Below are positions 18,856 through 35,662 of a stretch of 35,981 bases of DNA, one piece after another (the first letter of the stretch is position 1; every line of letters starts with the position of its first letter). This stretch comes from Candidatus Iainarchaeum sp. (GTDB lineage: Archaea; B1Sed10-29; WALL01): the NCBI GenBank assembly GCA_021162685.1, contig JAGGYF010000038.1, forward strand, positions 1 through 35,981, read 5' to 3'. The notes under the pieces were generated by a model. The model was not told the DNA's origin. It ran no database searches and saw nothing but the letters and a program-made list of their open reading frames with translations. The position numbers and the translations under genes are program-made.

Positions 18856-19503
18856 ATGAATAAAATCAAATTGATATGCAAGAGGCTTGAGAGAGCATAT
18901 GGTAAACCAGCTATAGAGTGCAACAAACCCCTTGACACATTAATACAAACAATACTCTCGCAGAACACATCTGATACAAATTCATATAGGGCCTTCTCCT
19001 CCCTTAAAAAGAGGTTTAAGACATGGGATGCTGTGATGAAAGCAAAAACAAAAACCATTGAAGACACGATAAGAATAGGAGGGCTTCCTCACATAAAAGC
19101 AGAGCGAATAAAACACGTCCTAAAAGAAATAAAACATAGGAGAGGCAGTTTTGACCTCTCTTTTTTGAGGACAATGAGCCATAAAGATGCAATGAAATGG
19201 TTGGTTTCACTAAAAGGTGTTGGACCAAAAACAGCAGCAGTTGTTCTCATGTTTTGCTTCAATAAACCAATAATGCCTGTGGATACACATGTGTATAGGA
19301 TAAGCAAACGACTTGGCATTGTTCCCAAGTATACTACAAGAGAAAAAACCCAGGAGATACTCAATGGCATTATCCCTGATAGTTGTAAATATATACTTCA
19401 TATCAATATGATAGAGCATGGGAGAAGGATATGCAGGGCAAAAAAGCCTCTCTGTGACAAATGCATACTAAATAGCGTATGTGACAGTGCATTTACTTTT
19501 TAA
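18856..19503 (+). CDS. nth: Endonuclease III (DNA glycosylase/AP lyase)
   Basis: Base-excision enzyme that removes oxidised pyrimidines and nicks the abasic site. The helix-hairpin-helix carries the catalytic Lys (LVSLKGVGPKTAAVVL), followed by the catalytic Asp (MPVDTHVYRISKRLG). The C-terminus has four Cys in C-X6-C-X2-C-X5-C order (CRAKKPLCDKCILNSVC) for a [4Fe-4S] cluster. The N-terminal half (LDTLIQTILSQNTSDTNSYRAF) fits the family. Length is 215 residues, as usual. The 3' end overlaps the ThiI-like gene by 11 bases tail to tail. Confidence 0.97.
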   Translation: MNKIKLICKRLERAYGKPAIECNKPLDTLIQTILSQNTSDTNSYRAFSSLKKRFKTWDAVMKAKTKTIEDTIRIGGLPHIKAERIKHVLKEIKHRRGSFDLSFLRTMSHKDAMKWLVSLKGVGPKTAAVVLMFCFNKPIMPVDTHVYRISKRLGIVPKYTTREKTQEILNGIIPDSCKYILHINMIEHGRRICRAKKPLCDKCILNSVCDSAFTF

Positions 19504-20113
19504 TGTGTTTTAGGCTGTATCCCACAAGCCTTTCCACATCCACTTCCTTTTCTTCCTCTTCTATCTCGTCAAGATTCGCAGATGTGGCTGGTTTATCTGG
19601 GACCGCTGTGCAACATATCGTAGGACGTGTTGATAGTTCAAACGTCCCTATCCTCTTTGCCATCTCCTCAATTTCAATCTTGTCCAACCCAATCAGTGGC
19701 CTTACAATAGGTAGTAGGGATGCACGCTCTGTTACGTATATGTTCTGTAATGTTTGGCTCGCAACCTGTGCAAGTGAATCTCCTGTGACCAAAAAATCAG
19801 CACCAATCTTTTTCCCATAAGTGCTTGCGATTCTGAACATCATTCTTTTACACAAAACGCATGCGAATCTTCTTTTACATGATGAAACAAATGCATTTAG
19901 GTTCTCTCCATGGGGGAAAACAATCAAATCCTTGATATTGCTGTCTTTCTCTTTTAGTACTTCAACTATCTCATAGACCAGGTCCTTTTTTTCTCTGCCA
20001 GAGAACGGATAATTATCAAAAAATACAGGAACAGTTTCAACATTCTTCTTCGCTATTAAGTATGTTGCAACAGGGGAATCTATACCACCTGAAATCAAAG
20101 ATATGCATTTCAT
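19493..20113 (-). CDS. ThiI-like PP-loop sulfurtransferase domain, without THUMP
   Basis: ATP-PPi-type domain related to the C-terminal half of ThiI, which adenylates tRNA U8 for 4-thiouridine formation or takes part in thiamine sulfur transfer. The PP-loop is SGGIDSPVAT. RRFACVLCKRMMFRIA and VTGDSLAQVASQTLQN match ThiI, and Cys pairs occur at CVLC and TICCTAVP. At 206 residues it lacks the ferredoxin-like and THUMP domains that full ThiI carries, so either a separate protein binds the RNA or the substrate is not tRNA. It follows the E1-like gene, possibly with a 4-base ATGA overlap if a frameshift in that gene is corrected. The acidic tail (DEIEEEEKEVDVERL) is unusual. Confidence 0.82.
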   Translation of the reverse strand: MKCISLISGGIDSPVATYLIAKKNVETVPVFFDNYPFSGREKKDLVYEIVEVLKEKDSNIKDLIVFPHGENLNAFVSSCKRRFACVLCKRMMFRIASTYGKKIGADFLVTGDSLAQVASQTLQNIYVTERASLLPIVRPLIGLDKIEIEEMAKRIGTFELSTRPTICCTAVPDKPATSANLDEIEEEEKEVDVERLVGYSLKHIKK

Positions 20114-20152
20114 AGGATCTCCTCGTATACTCTCCTTGCTATACTTTCAGCT

Positions 20153-20959
20153 TCATCCTTGTTCGCATTTATCAACATCTTCCCATTTTTGTATAACGTG
20201 CATCTTTTTTGGTATTATGCTAAACGCTGCTTTTGCTTTGCATGGCTGTATTGTAAGGAAGTCCATAGCATTTTCTTTTGTTCCACAATCCTTACAATCC
20301 TCTCTTTTCTTAACCTCAACAGTATAAAATGCATTCCTCTTTGCATTATAAATGAATACCTCGTCTTTTAGTACTTTTCCTCCTATAAAAAAATTTATTA
20401 CTTGCATAACTTGTACACTTGAAATCATAGAAACCACAGCAGGTATTGCACCAACTACCCCACACGGGTTATCCGAACCATTTGGAATGAAACATCTTAA
20501 ACATGCACTTTTATGTATGAACATGACTTGCCCATCATAGCCAGAAACAGATGCATAAACAAGAGGGATTTCCATTTTGATACACATACTATTCAACAGG
20601 TATTTTGTTGCAAATGTGTCAGTACAATCTAGCACAATATCTACATCTCTTATATGCTCCTCCCTGGCCTTTTTGGTTATGTAAGTTACATCTATGCCTG
20701 GATTGTGTTCCCTCAAACGTTTTGCTAGTACCTCTGCTTTGTTTTTTCCTATATCCCTCTCAGAAAATAAAGGACACCTATGGAGATTGCTTGCCCCAAC
20801 ATTATCATGGTCAATCAACACCAGGTTTATCCCAGATAAACAAAGGAGCAATGATGAGAAGTTTCCAAGACCACCACATCCAACAATAGCTGCTCTTTTC
20901 TCTCTCAATTGCTCATGATTTTTCTTCCCAATAGCCACTATCTGCCTTGAATAGTCCAT
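20153..20959 (-). CDS. E1-like ThiF/MoeB/UbaA-family adenylyltransferase, probable C-terminal frameshift
   Basis: Activates the C-terminus of a ubiquitin-like sulfur carrier by adenylation. The Rossmann loop is IVGCGGLGN; LIDHDNVGASNLHR, GKNKAEVLAKRL, IVLDCTDTFATKYLLN and two CxxC pairs (CLRCF, CKDCG) for zinc are present. I place the start at ATG 20959, one base after the stop of the CBS gene and behind AGGT. As written, the protein ends with CKAKAAFSIIPKKMHVIQKWEDVDKCEQG-like codons. In another frame, after a run of six A, the DNA reads a sensible ending that finishes in an ATGA overlap with the ThiI-like gene (stop at 20110). A one-base insertion, real or from sequencing, is likely. Confidence 0.85.
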   Translation of the reverse strand: MDYSRQIVAIGKKNHEQLREKRAAIVGCGGLGNFSSLLLCLSGINLVLIDHDNVGASNLHRCPLFSERDIGKNKAEVLAKRLREHNPGIDVTYITKKAREEHIRDVDIVLDCTDTFATKYLLNSMCIKMEIPLVYASVSGYDGQVMFIHKSACLRCFIPNGSDNPCGVVGAIPAVVSMISSVQVMQVINFFIGGKVLKDEVFIYNAKRNAFYTVEVKKREDCKDCGTKENAMDFLTIQPCKAKAAFSIIPKKMHVIQKWEDVDKCEQG

Positions 20960-20960
20960 T

Positions 20961-21413
20961 CTAATACCTGAAGCTTTCCAATGCCTCAAATATATCATCT
21001 TGCGACAATATCCCAACAAGCTTTCCGTTATCTATAACTGGTAACACTTGCTGTTTATTTCTATACATTTTAAGTGCAGCTGCCCTTATAGTGTCCTTTG
21101 GAGAAACAGATGCATGACACTTTTTCATGATGTCCTTTATAGTTTTTGGAAAGAAGCTCATTCCAAGTAATGGTTCGGTGAGTATTTCCTGTTCTGAGAT
21201 GTCTCTTGGGTCAATCACTAATTTCAATAGGTCTTGCTCATTAACAATGCCCACAAAGTTATTGTTTTCATCAAATACGGGCAGTATAACAACGCCATGC
21301 CCTTTAAGTTTGCTCATGGCATCCCTTATATCATCTGTAACCTTGACATATGGATAGTTCTTTTCCATAAGCTCCTCAACAGTTGTTTTCCTCAATCTTT
21401 CTAATGGGTCCAT
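20961..21413 (-). CDS. Protein with two CBS domains
   Basis: A 150-residue stand-alone pair of CBS domains, a fold that binds adenosyl ligands and senses energy state. The two halves show VKVTDDIRDAMSKLKGHGVVILPVFDENNNFVGIVNEQDLL and VSPKDTIRAAALKMYRNKQQVLPVIDNGKLVGILSQDD-type patterns, each ending in the usual G-I-V/L-x-x-x-D-L/I. The ATG has GGAGTGA 5 bases upstream. It is the first gene of an operon with the E1-like and ThiI-like genes and diverges from corA. A sensor role for the pathway downstream is inferred from position. Confidence 0.9.
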   Translation of the reverse strand: MDPLERLRKTTVEELMEKNYPYVKVTDDIRDAMSKLKGHGVVILPVFDENNNFVGIVNEQDLLKLVIDPRDISEQEILTEPLLGMSFFPKTIKDIMKKCHASVSPKDTIRAAALKMYRNKQQVLPVIDNGKLVGILSQDDIFEALESFRY

Positions 21414-21472
21414 GCAATCACTCCAAAGATATATATATCAACATATATTTAAATATCCTACTGAGTGGTACA

Positions 21473-22286
21473 ATGGTGAGAACACTCATATTCAAGCCAG
21501 ATAAAGAAGTGACATCCTTAGTGGATGATTTCTCAAAAGAAGGGAAAAAAGACGTAGTGTGGATGCACCTATACCCTGATGAGGACAAGGTTATTGATAC
21601 AATCATAGAAGAGATGGGGCAGGACGAGGAATTCCAGGAGGATCTCCTTGAGGAGCAGAGACCAAGATTAACAAACTTCAAAAACTTTTCAGTTGTTGTT
21701 TTTGCTGCTCCATTACTTGAAGGTTTGTTGCAGCTATCATTCATAATATCAAAACGGAAGATTATATCTGTATCTAATATCAGAAGTGAGACCATAGATA
21801 AGCTGATGACAGAATACGAGCATTCAGAGGCATATGTTACTCCATCAAAGATACTTTCAGATGTTTTAGGGGAGCTTGTTGAAGAGATAATAAAAACAAT
21901 TTTCGTTCCAGAATTCAAAGATGTTGAAAGCAGACCTTGAAGTTGTTAGGGAAATAATATCCGGAAAAGCAAAGTTTGTAAAACAGTCTGATTTTGATGC
22001 ATATATTGAAGATAGATTACTTTTCGCTATTGATTCCATTGATACAATACGGGAATCACTAAACAACATATCCAATCTTCACCTAACAAATCTCTCCCAT
22101 AGAATGAACGAGAGCATGCATAAGTTAACAGTCATTGGTTCTCTGCTACTCATCCCAACAGTTATCGCAAGCCTATTTGGTATGAATGTTGCATTACCTC
22201 CTCTTGACTTCTGGACAATCATTGTCATTTCTGTTATACTATCCATGATAATGGCTGCAATCCTCAAAAAGATTGGCTGGATTTAG
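21473..22286 (+). pseudogene. corA: CorA-like magnesium transporter, frame disrupted
   Basis: The first frame (ATG 21473, TATA box about 21444-21453, leaderless spacing) encodes a CorA N-terminal domain (FLLEEQRPRLTNFKNFSVVVFA-like) and stops at 21940 after PEFKDVESRP. A second frame, open from about 21894 and read from ATG 21921, encodes the C-terminal helices and the signature LFGMN, ending near 22286. Both halves together reach about 270 residues; CorA proteins are usually over 300, so the region between may also have lost some codons of the long helix. I interpret it as a frameshifted gene or a sequencing error. A programmed shift has no support here. The 3' end overlaps the SPOUT gene by 23 bases. 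Confidence 0.75.
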
Positions 22287-33107: not shown

Positions 33108-33578
33108 ATGCGTAGAAGAAGAGGAACAGACAAGATGACACTTGTGTTTATAATCTTAATCATCCTAATCATTGCTTTCATTGGCATACTGGTTTTGGCT
33201 TTGGGCTATATCGGCTATACCTCTCTCGTAAAGGAGAGACCCAAACCCCCAGATACTAGCATTATCTACAGAAACGAGTCAATATCGCCTATCATTATCC
33301 AACATACCTCTTCTGACCAATCAAGCCAGGAGCAACAGGAGCAGGACAACCAGCAAAACGAAACGAATGCATCTCAGGAAGAGCAAGAGGTTACCTACAA
33401 TGATTGTTCTTTCCCAGACAAGCCTCATGGCTCTAAAATTTGTGCTAGTTTAGATGCCACACACACGGAGGAGAAGTACATATGGGAATGCCAGAACGGT
33501 ACCTGGGTCCATGTGGAAACATGCTCATCAGCAGCAAATTGCATAGAATCAGGGGATACAGCAGAATGCCTAACTTGA
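33108..33578 (+). CDS. Single-pass membrane protein with Cys-rich exterior domain
   Basis: A 156-residue protein with a basic start (MRRRRGTDKM), one hydrophobic helix (LVFIILIILIIAFIGILVLAL) and an outside part. That part has a Gln/Glu/Asn/Ser-rich linker (SSDQSSQEQQEQDNQQNE) and a C-terminal module with six Cys (NDCSFPDKPHGSKIC, WECQNGTWVHVETC, NCIESGDTAEC). The C-x-N-G-x-W pattern recalls small disulfide-bonded modules of exported archaeal proteins, but I cannot name it. The gene has a TATA-like ATTTTTATA about 26 bases upstream, so leaderless expression is likely, and overlaps the thiL 3' end by 9 bases. Function unknown. Confidence 0.72.
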   Translation: MRRRRGTDKMTLVFIILIILIIAFIGILVLALGYIGYTSLVKERPKPPDTSIIYRNESISPIIIQHTSSDQSSQEQQEQDNQQNETNASQEEQEVTYNDCSFPDKPHGSKICASLDATHTEEKYIWECQNGTWVHVETCSSAANCIESGDTAECLT

Positions 33579-34466
33579 AAAGTTCTCCCAACCTTTTGCA
33601 CTCACTTTCTTTCCTTTGTAATATACGCCCCTGCCTTTACTAACCTCTCCAATCTTGTACTTTCCATTGTATCCAGGTATTGTATAAACGATCTGGTAAT
33701 CCTCTCCAGAGTGCCATATGATATCATCAGCATTTAATCCATATCTTCTGCAATACCTGTACAACTTTGGGTCTACTGGAACCCTATCTATATCAATTCT
33801 TACTTTAGATTGCTTAGCCAACACATTCAACTCAAATCCTAAGCCATCTGAAATATCAATACCGGCATTTGCTTTTTCCATTAGTTTCTTACATAGTTTA
33901 ACATTCAGCTCGGGTTTGAGTTGGGGTTCTATAAACTCCTTTTTTCTTGGCAAACCCATAGTAAGTATTCTGTAACCTAATGCAGCGCTTCCTATATTTC
34001 CGGTCAGAACCACAGAGTCCCCAGGTTTTGCGTTGCTCCTCAGAAGCGGCTTATTCTTTATTTTTCCAATTGCAGTGCTTGCTACCACCAACTGTTTACT
34101 CTCTATGGTATCTCCACCCAAAAGATAGGCATTAAACTGTTTCAATTTCTTATCCATTGATTTGTATAATGAAATAACAAATGACTCATCGTAGTTTGAT
34201 GGTATCCCCACGCAAGTAAACATATATTGGGGCAATGCACCTTTTGCTAGCAAGTCTGACATGGTACTAACAACAACCTTGTGACCAATCGCATTCGGAT
34301 CAGTTGTTTGGAAATGATTTCCAACAACACTCATATCCACGGTTACTGCCATATTGCCAATAATTTCAGCATCTTCTTCATATTTTGTTAAAACATGCCG
34401 GTCTCTCCTCAGCATTTTCCTAAGTTTTGCAACTATTGCCCTTTCCCCAATGCCAGATAGACGCAT
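33570..34466 (-). CDS. thiL: Thiamine-monophosphate kinase
   Basis: Phosphorylates thiamine monophosphate to the active pyrophosphate cofactor. The protein (298 residues) follows the PurM/AIRS fold: N-terminus RLSGIGERAIVAKLRKML, STMSDLLAKGALPQYMF, LLGGDTIESKQLVV, AKPGDSVVLTGNIGSAALGY, AGIDISDGLGFELN and SGEDYQIVYTIPG. The first metal-binding segment (EEDAEIIGNMAVTVDMSVVGNHF) lacks one Asp of the usual DDAA pair, so some change in metal binding is possible. The ATG is divergent from the SdpI-like gene with interleaved TATA boxes, and thiN is two genes away. Confidence 0.9.
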   Translation of the reverse strand: MRLSGIGERAIVAKLRKMLRRDRHVLTKYEEDAEIIGNMAVTVDMSVVGNHFQTTDPNAIGHKVVVSTMSDLLAKGALPQYMFTCVGIPSNYDESFVISLYKSMDKKLKQFNAYLLGGDTIESKQLVVASTAIGKIKNKPLLRSNAKPGDSVVLTGNIGSAALGYRILTMGLPRKKEFIEPQLKPELNVKLCKKLMEKANAGIDISDGLGFELNVLAKQSKVRIDIDRVPVDPKLYRYCRRYGLNADDIIWHSGEDYQIVYTIPGYNGKYKIGEVSKGRGVYYKGKKVSAKGWENFSS

Positions 34467-34499: not shown

Positions 34500-35132
34500 A
34501 TGGAAAAAAAGGAATGGCTCATAATCGTACTGCTCCTATCAAACTTTCTTATCCCTATAGCTCTTTATCAAGTTCTTCCAGAGAAAATACCTCTTCATTG
34601 GAATGCACAAAATTATGTTGATTCCATGGGACCCAAATACATGATCTTCCTTATTCCTCTCCTAACTGTACTGATATACTGCTTCTTATTCTATCTGCCA
34701 CATATATCAGTATACAAAAGAAACATCATGAGATTTTATGAAAACTTTGGTTTCACCATACGTTTTGCCTTTGTTCTCCTTATGACCTCTATCTTTTATG
34801 TAGTATTATTAGCTTCACTGGGATTTATCTTTGCAGTATCTCAAGCCGTCCTGTTGGTCTTAATCCCCTTCTTGTTCTATATCTCATATACTATCAGGTT
34901 TACAAAAAGAAATTTTTTCATAGGTATTAGGACACCGTGGACATTAGCTAGTGAAAAGGTATGGAAAAAAACACATCTACTCGGAAGCAAACTACTAATG
35001 CTCTCCTCATTGTTTCTGTTTATTGGTGTGTATGACTCTAATCTCATACTTGTCTCTCTTCTTCCATTAATCTTATCAATATTGTTCCTTGTTATCTATT
35101 CATTTGTATTATACAAAAGGGTGAGAAAATGA
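34500..35132 (+). CDS. SdpI/YhfL-like membrane protein (DUF1648)
   Basis: A 210-residue protein with about six transmembrane helices. The loop after the first helix (PEKIPLHWNAQNYVDSMGPK) is the DUF1648 signature, and the later segment RNFFIGIRTPWTLASEKVWKKTHLLGSKL is the SdpI C-terminal signature. In Bacillus SdpI gives immunity to a killing factor; in most organisms the role is unknown. I place the start at ATG 34500, 26 bases after a TTTTTTAAC box; an open frame extends 11 codons upstream. Its stop overlaps the thiN start by 4 bases, an unexpected coupling of a membrane protein with thiamine synthesis. Confidence 0.88.
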   Translation: MEKKEWLIIVLLLSNFLIPIALYQVLPEKIPLHWNAQNYVDSMGPKYMIFLIPLLTVLIYCFLFYLPHISVYKRNIMRFYENFGFTIRFAFVLLMTSIFYVVLLASLGFIFAVSQAVLLVLIPFLFYISYTIRFTKRNFFIGIRTPWTLASEKVWKKTHLLGSKLLMLSSLFLFIGVYDSNLILVSLLPLILSILFLVIYSFVLYKRVRK

Positions 35133-35662
35133 ATATACTTGATGAACTCAATCAAGCAGTTGAGATTATAAAGAAGACACCAGCATTTTGTAAACTAATT
35201 CCAGAGGTCGGAACAAACATAGCATACGCTAAACCAGACGCAAAAACAATAGATGATGTTGCAGCAATTCCTGGTAGAATAAGGGAAGCATTAGGCAAAC
35301 CCTCTACTGTTGAAAGCGCGCATTTTGGTGTTTCCTCCCATATGGCAAGAACCTGCTTAAAAGCCATCCAATTCGACCCAAATAAACGATGTTGTATGAA
35401 CATCAGATACTCTGAGGAAAACATAGAGCAATTGAGGGAACATGGATACTCTATCTTTTTCTTTGATCGCATGAATGAACCCGAAAACATAAAACAAAAG
35501 GAAGGAGCAAGCATTCCTTGGATTGTTGAACAAGCATATAAAGGGTTAGGATATATCCCGGATATCATCTATGATAAAGGGGCAGTGGGGAAAGAGCCAA
35601 TGATTAGGATATTTGCTGAGAATCCAAGAAAAGCGGTTGAGATTGCATTGAGTATTTTGTAA
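35129..35662 (+). CDS. thiN: Stand-alone ThiN-type thiamine-phosphate synthase
   Basis: Joins the pyrimidine and thiazole halves of thiamine in archaea, replacing ThiE. The 177 residues match the ThiN domain often fused to ThiD: LIPEVGTNIAYAKPDAKTIDDVAAIPGRI, FGVSSHMARTCL with the conserved His region, CCMNIRYSEENI, SIPWIVEQA and PDIIYDKGAVGKEPMIRIF. No ThiD kinase is attached, so the protein is the single-domain form. Some single-domain ThiN proteins are fused to DNA-binding parts and act as regulators (ThiR); none is seen here. Coupled to the SdpI-like gene by a 4-base overlap and near thiL. Confidence 0.9.
   Translation: MNILDELNQAVEIIKKTPAFCKLIPEVGTNIAYAKPDAKTIDDVAAIPGRIREALGKPSTVESAHFGVSSHMARTCLKAIQFDPNKRCCMNIRYSEENIEQLREHGYSIFFFDRMNEPENIKQKEGASIPWIVEQAYKGLGYIPDIIYDKGAVGKEPMIRIFAENPRKAVEIALSIL

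Follow-up and report, generated by a model that had tools for sequence, protein, structure and literature searches.

A THUMP-less ThiI PP-loop protein of Candidatus Iainarchaeum as the probable catalytic half of a two-part archaeal tRNA thiolase

The closest described counterpart of the system reported here is ThiI/TtuI, the tRNA U8 sulfurtransferase (e.g. Thermotoga maritima 4KR6, Bacillus anthracis 2C5S and the archaeal Fe-S type), which unites a PP-loop domain and its catalytic cysteine region with the tRNA-binding NFLD and THUMP domains. In the T. maritima dimer the interface is formed mainly by the PP-loop domain, and the NFLD/THUMP region of one subunit holds the RNA with U8 lying close to the other subunit's PP-loop domain; placing U8 is, in the authors' conclusion, possible for the dimer only (PMC4041423). 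In the methanogen ThiI a set of cysteines (CxxC + C) is needed for an Fe-S cluster and sulfide serves as the in vitro donor, and the involvement of sulfur carriers in archaeal 4-thiouridine (s4U) is stated there as an open question (PMC5372739). Here we analyse a contig of Candidatus Iainarchaeum sp. (JAGGYF010000038.1 of assembly GCA_021162685.1; the window hereafter means this whole stretch of 35,981 nucleotides), which encodes a ThiI PP-loop protein that stands alone behind an E1-like adenylating enzyme and a CBS-pair protein. An earlier note on this DNA had drawn attention to these three genes as a possible sulfur-transfer module; the observation is real, but its interest lies elsewhere: the reading that suits the ThiI protein best makes it one of two parts of a tRNA thiolase, the catalytic one.

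The window is contig C33 of genome G000 (1.11 Mb in 45 contigs, 98.4% complete; genomes, contigs and loci are labelled G, C and L throughout). The order CBS, E1, THUMP-less ThiI on its minus strand is as the earlier note had described it, with Pfam matches far beyond chance. Residues 2-192 of the ThiI protein cover positions 5-196/197 of PF02568, and the same Pfam search gives no THUMP match in the 206 residues, which also lack an NFLD+THUMP region in the same polypeptide. Its P-loop, SGGIDS, conforms to the PP-loop signature SGGxDS, and its cysteines C85, C88 and C168 (CxxC plus a third Cys), a set resembling that of the methanogen ThiI, are invariant across eight aligned stand-alone proteins. 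The best NCBIfam models, PRK08349 (214.9 bits) and the ThiI equivalog TIGR00342 (184.6 bits, against a curated score of 264.5), both stay below cut-off. A complete ThiI elsewhere, which the earlier note had named, together with a lack of gene-order conservation, as evidence that would refute its module, was not found in this genome with PF02568: besides the window protein (201.4 bits) there is one match above the Pfam cut-off, of 22.4 bits, which was rejected as a second ThiI, being GMP synthase.

The THUMP region is encoded on a different contig. Scanning G000 with family profiles (PF02926, PF02568, PF00899 and the ThiS family) places PF02926 THUMP domains at three sites: a TIGR01177-type methyltransferase (220.6 bits, below cut-off), Pus10 (460.8 bits, above cut-off) and an NFLD-THUMP protein on contig C31. 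The last is of ThiI type and answers to the THUMP-only protein whose existence elsewhere in the genome the earlier note had raised. Past its THUMP domain it continues with GLPLGVSGTVCLECYNKDDVLAGLMMMKRGC...PVFYPLIAL, i.e. the linker, the stretch at the P-loop position, the helix after it and then, the middle being missing, a segment from late in the PP-loop domain; the same genome holds a THUMP joined to a non-catalytic PP-loop. Its best match in the PDB is PH1313 of Pyrococcus horikoshii (1VBK; E=8e-27), which likewise combines NFLD-THUMP with a truncated PP-loop, and the corresponding partner of G045, presumably a Thermococcales-like genome, is near-identical to PH1313 in build (E=1e-138). 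A 2023 review (PMC9957541) notes that the activity of PH1313 still lacks confirmation. We consider it probable, from these gene sequences and their distribution, that a two-subunit tRNA U8 sulfurtransferase (a split ThiI/TtuI) has the window protein for its catalytic subunit and the C31 protein for its other one, with tRNA thiolation as the likely role. Unlike in the one-piece ThiI/TtuI, catalysis and tRNA binding would then lie on two genes, the PP-loop of the THUMP protein is shrunken and motif-less, and there is no rhodanese; unlike PH1313 as hitherto described, the THUMP protein is read as a tRNA-binding subunit with a separate PP-loop protein as its catalytic mate.

Further evidence comes from the reciprocal fates of the two halves in 61 genomes that we searched for the ThiI PP-loop, the THUMP partner, the E1, the carrier and NcsA. 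Scored by pattern, the 22 partner proteins have lost both the P-loop (kept in 0/22) and the DI-loop (0/22) and keep CxxC in a single case (1/22), as against P-loops in all 21 stand-alone PP-loop proteins and all 28 fused ThiI rows (two of these from G026 and one from G023) and DI-loops in 19/21 and 25/28, respectively. By the same patterns the partners retain the linker in 20/22 and the late PP-loop block in 16/22. A pseudo-partner is present in 19 of the 21 genomes with a stand-alone PP-loop versus 3 of the 40 others (Fisher p=9e-11, a value that overstates independence because genomes of one class share ancestry), and in G044 the two halves are adjacent genes. There are also apparent intermediates: the partner of G022 (L166, G022:C11) has a full-size pseudo PP-loop with NGNCSS replacing SGGxDS and CxxC still there, and in G023 an intact stand-alone copy lies at a distance of 2.2 kb from a fused ThiI that has an intact P-loop but no third Cys.

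Public loci extend this picture. The sample comprises 80 of 580 matches, is not a survey and may not include very near relatives; THUMP presence before the PP-loop was judged by the THUMP profile. In 70 of the 80 loci a THUMP precedes the PP-loop and shares its frame; in the other ten none stands immediately before it. The ten comprise nine stand-alone genes and one tandem (L196), and all are archaeal by their record titles: seven Thermoplasmata/Thermoplasmatota, two Methanomassiliicoccales/-aceae and one ‘archaeon’ among the matches listed. At least five archaeal loci (L192, L193, L195, L213 and L227) are among the 70 fused. The tandem, from Thermoplasmata, joins the THUMP part, the pseudo-PP-loop and the PP-loop within a single open frame (513 residues). 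A tree built from 67 PP-loop domains needs at least four changes between the stand-alone and fused states, and one built from 51 NFLD-THUMP regions at least three in the pseudo-partner state. This suggests that the conversion of a homodimeric one-piece ThiI to a pair of one active and one dead protein took place on more than one occasion.

A subfunctionalisation of this kind is comparable to that of Ctu1/Ctu2 (Ncs6/Ncs2), the eukaryotic U34 thiolase, in which Ctu2/Ncs2 is the inactive partner; that pair differs in belonging to the TtuA/Ncs6 family, in acting at position 34 and in having no THUMP. The likeness lies in a PP-loop thiolase made of two proteins, where archaea use a single NcsA (PMC10067955).

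The cross-subunit placement of U8 in the ThiI dimer, where one subunit holds the tRNA for the other's active site, makes it understandable how a THUMP protein with a residual PP-loop and a separate PP-loop protein could be two trans-acting parts. The split would retain one tRNA-binding half and one catalytic half. We infer that the two proteins form a physical complex yielding s4U at position 8: the C31 NFLD-THUMP subunit, with its shrunken pseudo-PP-loop domain, would bind the acceptor/CCA end of the tRNA, and the window subunit would adenylate U8 and insert sulfur, most likely through an Fe-S cluster on the CxxC + C cysteines. If the split is true, it gives PH1313 (1VBK) both a function and a mate, and stand-alone PP-loop proteins annotated as ‘hypothetical’ and THUMP proteins annotated as ‘ThiI-like’ belong together.

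Several observations weigh against this interpretation. Two of the 21 genomes with a stand-alone PP-loop have no clear pseudo-partner: G040 has a weak THUMP match only, and the THUMP protein of G023 keeps an intact P-loop. Conversely, G003, G017 and G018 (85, 72 and 67% complete) have the partner with no PP-loop found. In L196 the 513-residue frame follows a TAG that lies within the THUMP part (~4245, + strand) and may be read through, stem from a sequence error or mark a broken gene. On the THUMP tree 23 forks stay open and branches are long, and the halves of G014 sit in different clades of the PP-loop and THUMP trees; thus, halves may be exchanged, and the changes on the trees need not all be fissions. 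The Asp with which T. maritima ThiI touches the linker of the other subunit survives in 3 of the 16 partners with a matched block versus 18 of the 21 stand-alone PP-loops, a loss that would fit an asymmetric dimer and equally a lost interface. Lastly, CxxC is absent from 6 of the 21 stand-alone PP-loops, so that the Fe-S route would not be general and another sulfur route must exist in those.

The neighbouring E1 raises the question of where the sulfur comes from. E. coli ThiF (1ZUD) aligns to its residues 1-227 (E=1.3e-34), and by this alignment it carries the nucleotide-binding core, the Cys loop and two CxxC pairs. It is below the curated equivalog cut-offs for ThiF (163.9/275.25 bits), MoeB (150.2/449) and UbaA (119.7/450), and is the only PF00899 match in the genome, with no second E1. 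On C31 lies a 65-residue ThiS/SAMP2-like protein ending VVSGG, i.e. with a C-terminal GG (PF02597 43.3 bits, cut-off 22.5; below the SAMP2 and ThiS equivalog cut-offs), the single ThiS-family match in a genome search and so the separately encoded ubiquitin-like carrier that the earlier note had postulated. About 0.8 kb from it, with one open reading frame between, is the gene of an NcsA-like PP-loop protein (best NCBIfam match NcsA, 247.9 bits; the curated score is 500), and the THUMP, NcsA-like and carrier genes lie within 4.3 kb. The set resembles UbaA/SAMP2/NcsA and TtuC/TtuB/TtuA in comprising one E1, one GG-ended ThiS/SAMP2-like carrier and an NcsA-like protein near the carrier; it differs in that the E1 adjoins thiI, not the carrier, and in falling short of the named NCBIfam equivalog cut-offs.

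One possibility, compatible with a split ThiI and somewhat unlikely in our estimate, is that E1, CBS and thiI are co-transcribed by chance or for common regulation and do not work together. The CBS part of the cluster is in keeping with it. The CBS stop and the E1 ATG are separated by one base, yet conservation of the three-gene order, which the earlier note had proposed to look for, did not hold: CBS adjoins E1-thiI in 0/20 loci from 20 relatives (3-14 kb each), and L072 alone has a CBS gene, ~4 kb from thiI. We accordingly rejected a conserved CBS-E1-thiI trio, CBS being no conserved neighbour in the relatives' loci. For the E1 the same explanation draws on the lack of co-variation of E1 and ThiI across genomes, but has to contend with an E1 that is found near thiI in several arrangements. 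It adjoins thiI at 3/20 of the relatives' loci and lies within 3 kb of a ThiI PP-loop in four genomes, on the same strand in G000 and G007 and on opposite strands in G011 and G012; in G057:C45 (L180:2241-4258) an E1 core and a complete ThiI without CxxC share one open frame, although the ATG of ThiI itself may also be used. The resulting count of five linked cases in the 28 genomes holding both, against ~0.14 expected, has p=3e-7 assuming independence, and four of the five come from the window genome and its class and are not independent. In L074 (G007:C11) the E1 directly upstream of the stand-alone thiI (~6316-5625, - strand) is broken over three frames; this genome is 66% complete.

A second explanation couples E1 and ThiI mechanistically: the E1 would make a carrier thiocarboxylate, from which sulfur would pass to the PP-loop subunit, perhaps by way of a TBP-like cysteine protein as relay. 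We regard this as doubtful. Beyond the linkage just described, it gains from L194, one of the listed public loci, where a ThiS-family gene (PF02597 26.1 bits, above cut-off) ends 17 nucleotides before the stand-alone thiI, followed by a gene for a TBP-like protein, with an NcsA/TtuA-like gene on the opposite strand; from the grouping of carrier, NcsA-like gene and THUMP partner in G007 as on C31; and from the six CxxC-less stand-alone proteins that need another sulfur route. The co-occurrence data point elsewhere. Over the 61 genomes E1 and carrier track each other closely (34/35, p=2e-8), and E1 tracks NcsA (p=0.001 at 200 bits, a threshold picked after the scores were seen; p=0.11 at 150 and 0.005 at 240), but neither shows co-occurrence with ThiI (p=0.37 for E1, 0.45 for the carrier) or with stand-alone ThiI (p=0.40 and 0.28). 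Neither E1 nor carrier accompanies the stand-alone PP-loop and the pseudo-partner in five genomes (G001, G002, G004, G034 and G044); the first three belong to the same family as the window genome and have a completeness of 85-89%. Moreover, CxxC is kept in three of the four stand-alone ThiI proteins adjacent to an E1, the E1 of G007 is in three frames, and G057 has no ThiS match. A rule by which absence of CxxC would go with an E1 present or adjacent was compared by eye and gave no clean pattern. The E1-thiI link and the presence of a carrier, on which the earlier note had built its sulfur-transfer module, are thus real; a need of ThiI for that carrier does not emerge from the distribution. 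Since E1 and carrier follow each other and NcsA and not ThiI, they most likely serve NcsA first: the window E1 and the C31 carrier would primarily supply the NcsA-like protein for 2-thiouridine, and by standing beside the two ThiI halves would make up one tRNA-sulfur gene set with them. Links of archaeal E1 genes with ThiI (arCOG01676) and of ThiS with MesJ/NcsA-type genes were already noted in 2010 (PMC2948915), in a paper whose parts examined here do not describe a split ThiI or a free-standing TBP-like protein. Titles and abstract beginnings of the literature found do not mention a split ThiI, with mention in full texts possible and the main Fe-S ThiI papers not covered, and its novelty in print is uncertain.

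The small TBP-like protein deserves separate consideration. It is encoded by a gene of its own directly upstream of thiI in G001, G011 and G012 (80-99 residues), and a profile built from five members (these three, L190 and L194) finds it adjoining or within ~0.8 kb of the stand-alone thiI in L187, L188, L189 and G038. In the window the E1 frame stops early at 20153 and the +1 frame runs on to an ATGA overlap with thiI; the profile matches the E1 tail (E=4e-5; in the genome search G000:C33:20201-20266, E=8.7e-5, model positions 1-22), and compared with G001, G011 and G012 this apparent remnant has lost its frame and misses ~30 internal residues. The protein occurs at 5 of the 10 listed loci without a fused THUMP versus none of the 70 fused, and in 9 of the 21 stand-alone PP-loop genomes (G000 by its partial tail) versus 2 of the 40 others (p=6e-4); excluding G000 and the three query genomes, the figures become 5/17 versus 2/40 (p=0.02). 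One of the two others, G055, is a partial match of 20.6 bits, and the second, G058, has no ThiI match; in G023, G037, G045 and G059 the gene is not near thiI.

One Cys and one Gly are invariant in 14 aligned members. No Pfam model reaches its cut-off, with weak matches to TBP in 4/14 and to DUF3378 in 3/14; the best profile match in the PDB is TBP (E=2e-6). TBP is also the top fold match of a predicted model (predicted local distance difference test 85.9, from five sequences), with Thermoplasma TA0095 (2JOI), absent from the sequence matches, ranking second; E 0.001 is not attained by any fold match. A literature search on TA0095/COG4004 gave no relevant paper. The protein aligns loosely with the C-terminal domain of the G011 E1, and as G001 has it without an E1 match it is not merely a piece of E1. 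A bolder proposal, which we put forward tentatively and hold to be unlikely as a whole, is that two-subunit ThiI evolved repeatedly in archaea and that in many of them this protein of ~80-100 residues, akin to the C-terminal domain of E1 but free-standing, relays sulfur from an E1/ThiS-type carrier or a desulfurase to the catalytic subunit. It is at any rate a concrete candidate for the question of sulfur carriers in archaeal s4U, which the relay, if true, would answer. Cysteine desulfurases are encoded on C26 of G000, one of SufS type (456.7 bits, cut-off 475.1) and a partial one of NifS/IscS type.

That the PP-loop protein acts alone and has a different substrate, be it some other position in tRNA or a small molecule like the thiamine thiazole, with the dead-domain THUMP protein unrelated to it, is improbable: the sub-equivalog TIGR00342 score, the presence of thiL and thiN in the window and the unconfirmed activity of PH1313 are in its favour, but the reciprocal motif loss, the co-occurrence of the halves and the one-frame tandem speak against it, and no other full ThiI, no Thi4 and no adjacent thiamine gene was found.

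The earlier note had thought a thiamine link conceivable; the data do not support it. Some 12-16 kb, occupied by genes of both orientations, separate thiL and thiN from the cluster, and a genome search found no Thi4 in G000 (ThiG was not searched for). The best Thi4 match, of 32.8 bits and above the Pfam cut-off in a search that also matched in 14/14 controls, was rejected as a geranylgeranyl-reductase-family protein, and two further matches are below cut-off. tRNA modification as the only role of archaeal ThiI has been called plausible (PMC2948915). The coordinates of the features discussed are collected below.

Table 1. Features of the window and of contig C31 in genome G000; positions refer to the window unless a contig is named.
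Feature	Position	Strand	Basis
ThiI/TtuI PP-loop (AANH) protein, stand-alone, 206 aa (amino acids); predicted catalytic subunit of a split tRNA U8 thiolase	19493-20113	-	PF02568 E=1.4e-59
Apparent remnant of small TBP-like protein; start MDFLTIQPCKAKAAFSIIPKK in E1 frame, C-terminal part in +1 frame	20110-20266	-	profile match and sequence
E1-like (ThiF/MoeB/UbaA-type) adenylating enzyme, 268 aa, ATG at 20959	20153-20959	-	PF00899 E=6.3e-57
CBS-pair protein, 150 aa	20961-21413	-	PF00571 E=9.5e-27, two stretches
thiL	33570-34466	-	
thiN, stand-alone	35129-35662	+	
NFLD-THUMP partner protein, 260 aa	contig C31, L005:8552-9334		PF22025 and PF02926

Next to the CBS gene the window also encodes corA (21474-22286, + strand), split over two frames, with open reading frames at 21383-21940 and 21921-22286 that are both CorA by Pfam. 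Together with the break in the E1 tail this makes two frame breaks in the window, and sequence errors are possible.

Other tRNA-modification genes were seen beside the two ThiI halves in further genomes. The gene for the KEOPS subunit Cgi121 (71.1 bits, cut-off 40) lies directly upstream of, and overlaps, the stand-alone thiI in L077 (G013:C20; 6000-5584, - strand), and NcsA/TtuA-like PP-loop genes overlap the stand-alone thiI in L078 (G014:C5) and the THUMP partner gene in L183 (G034:C30).

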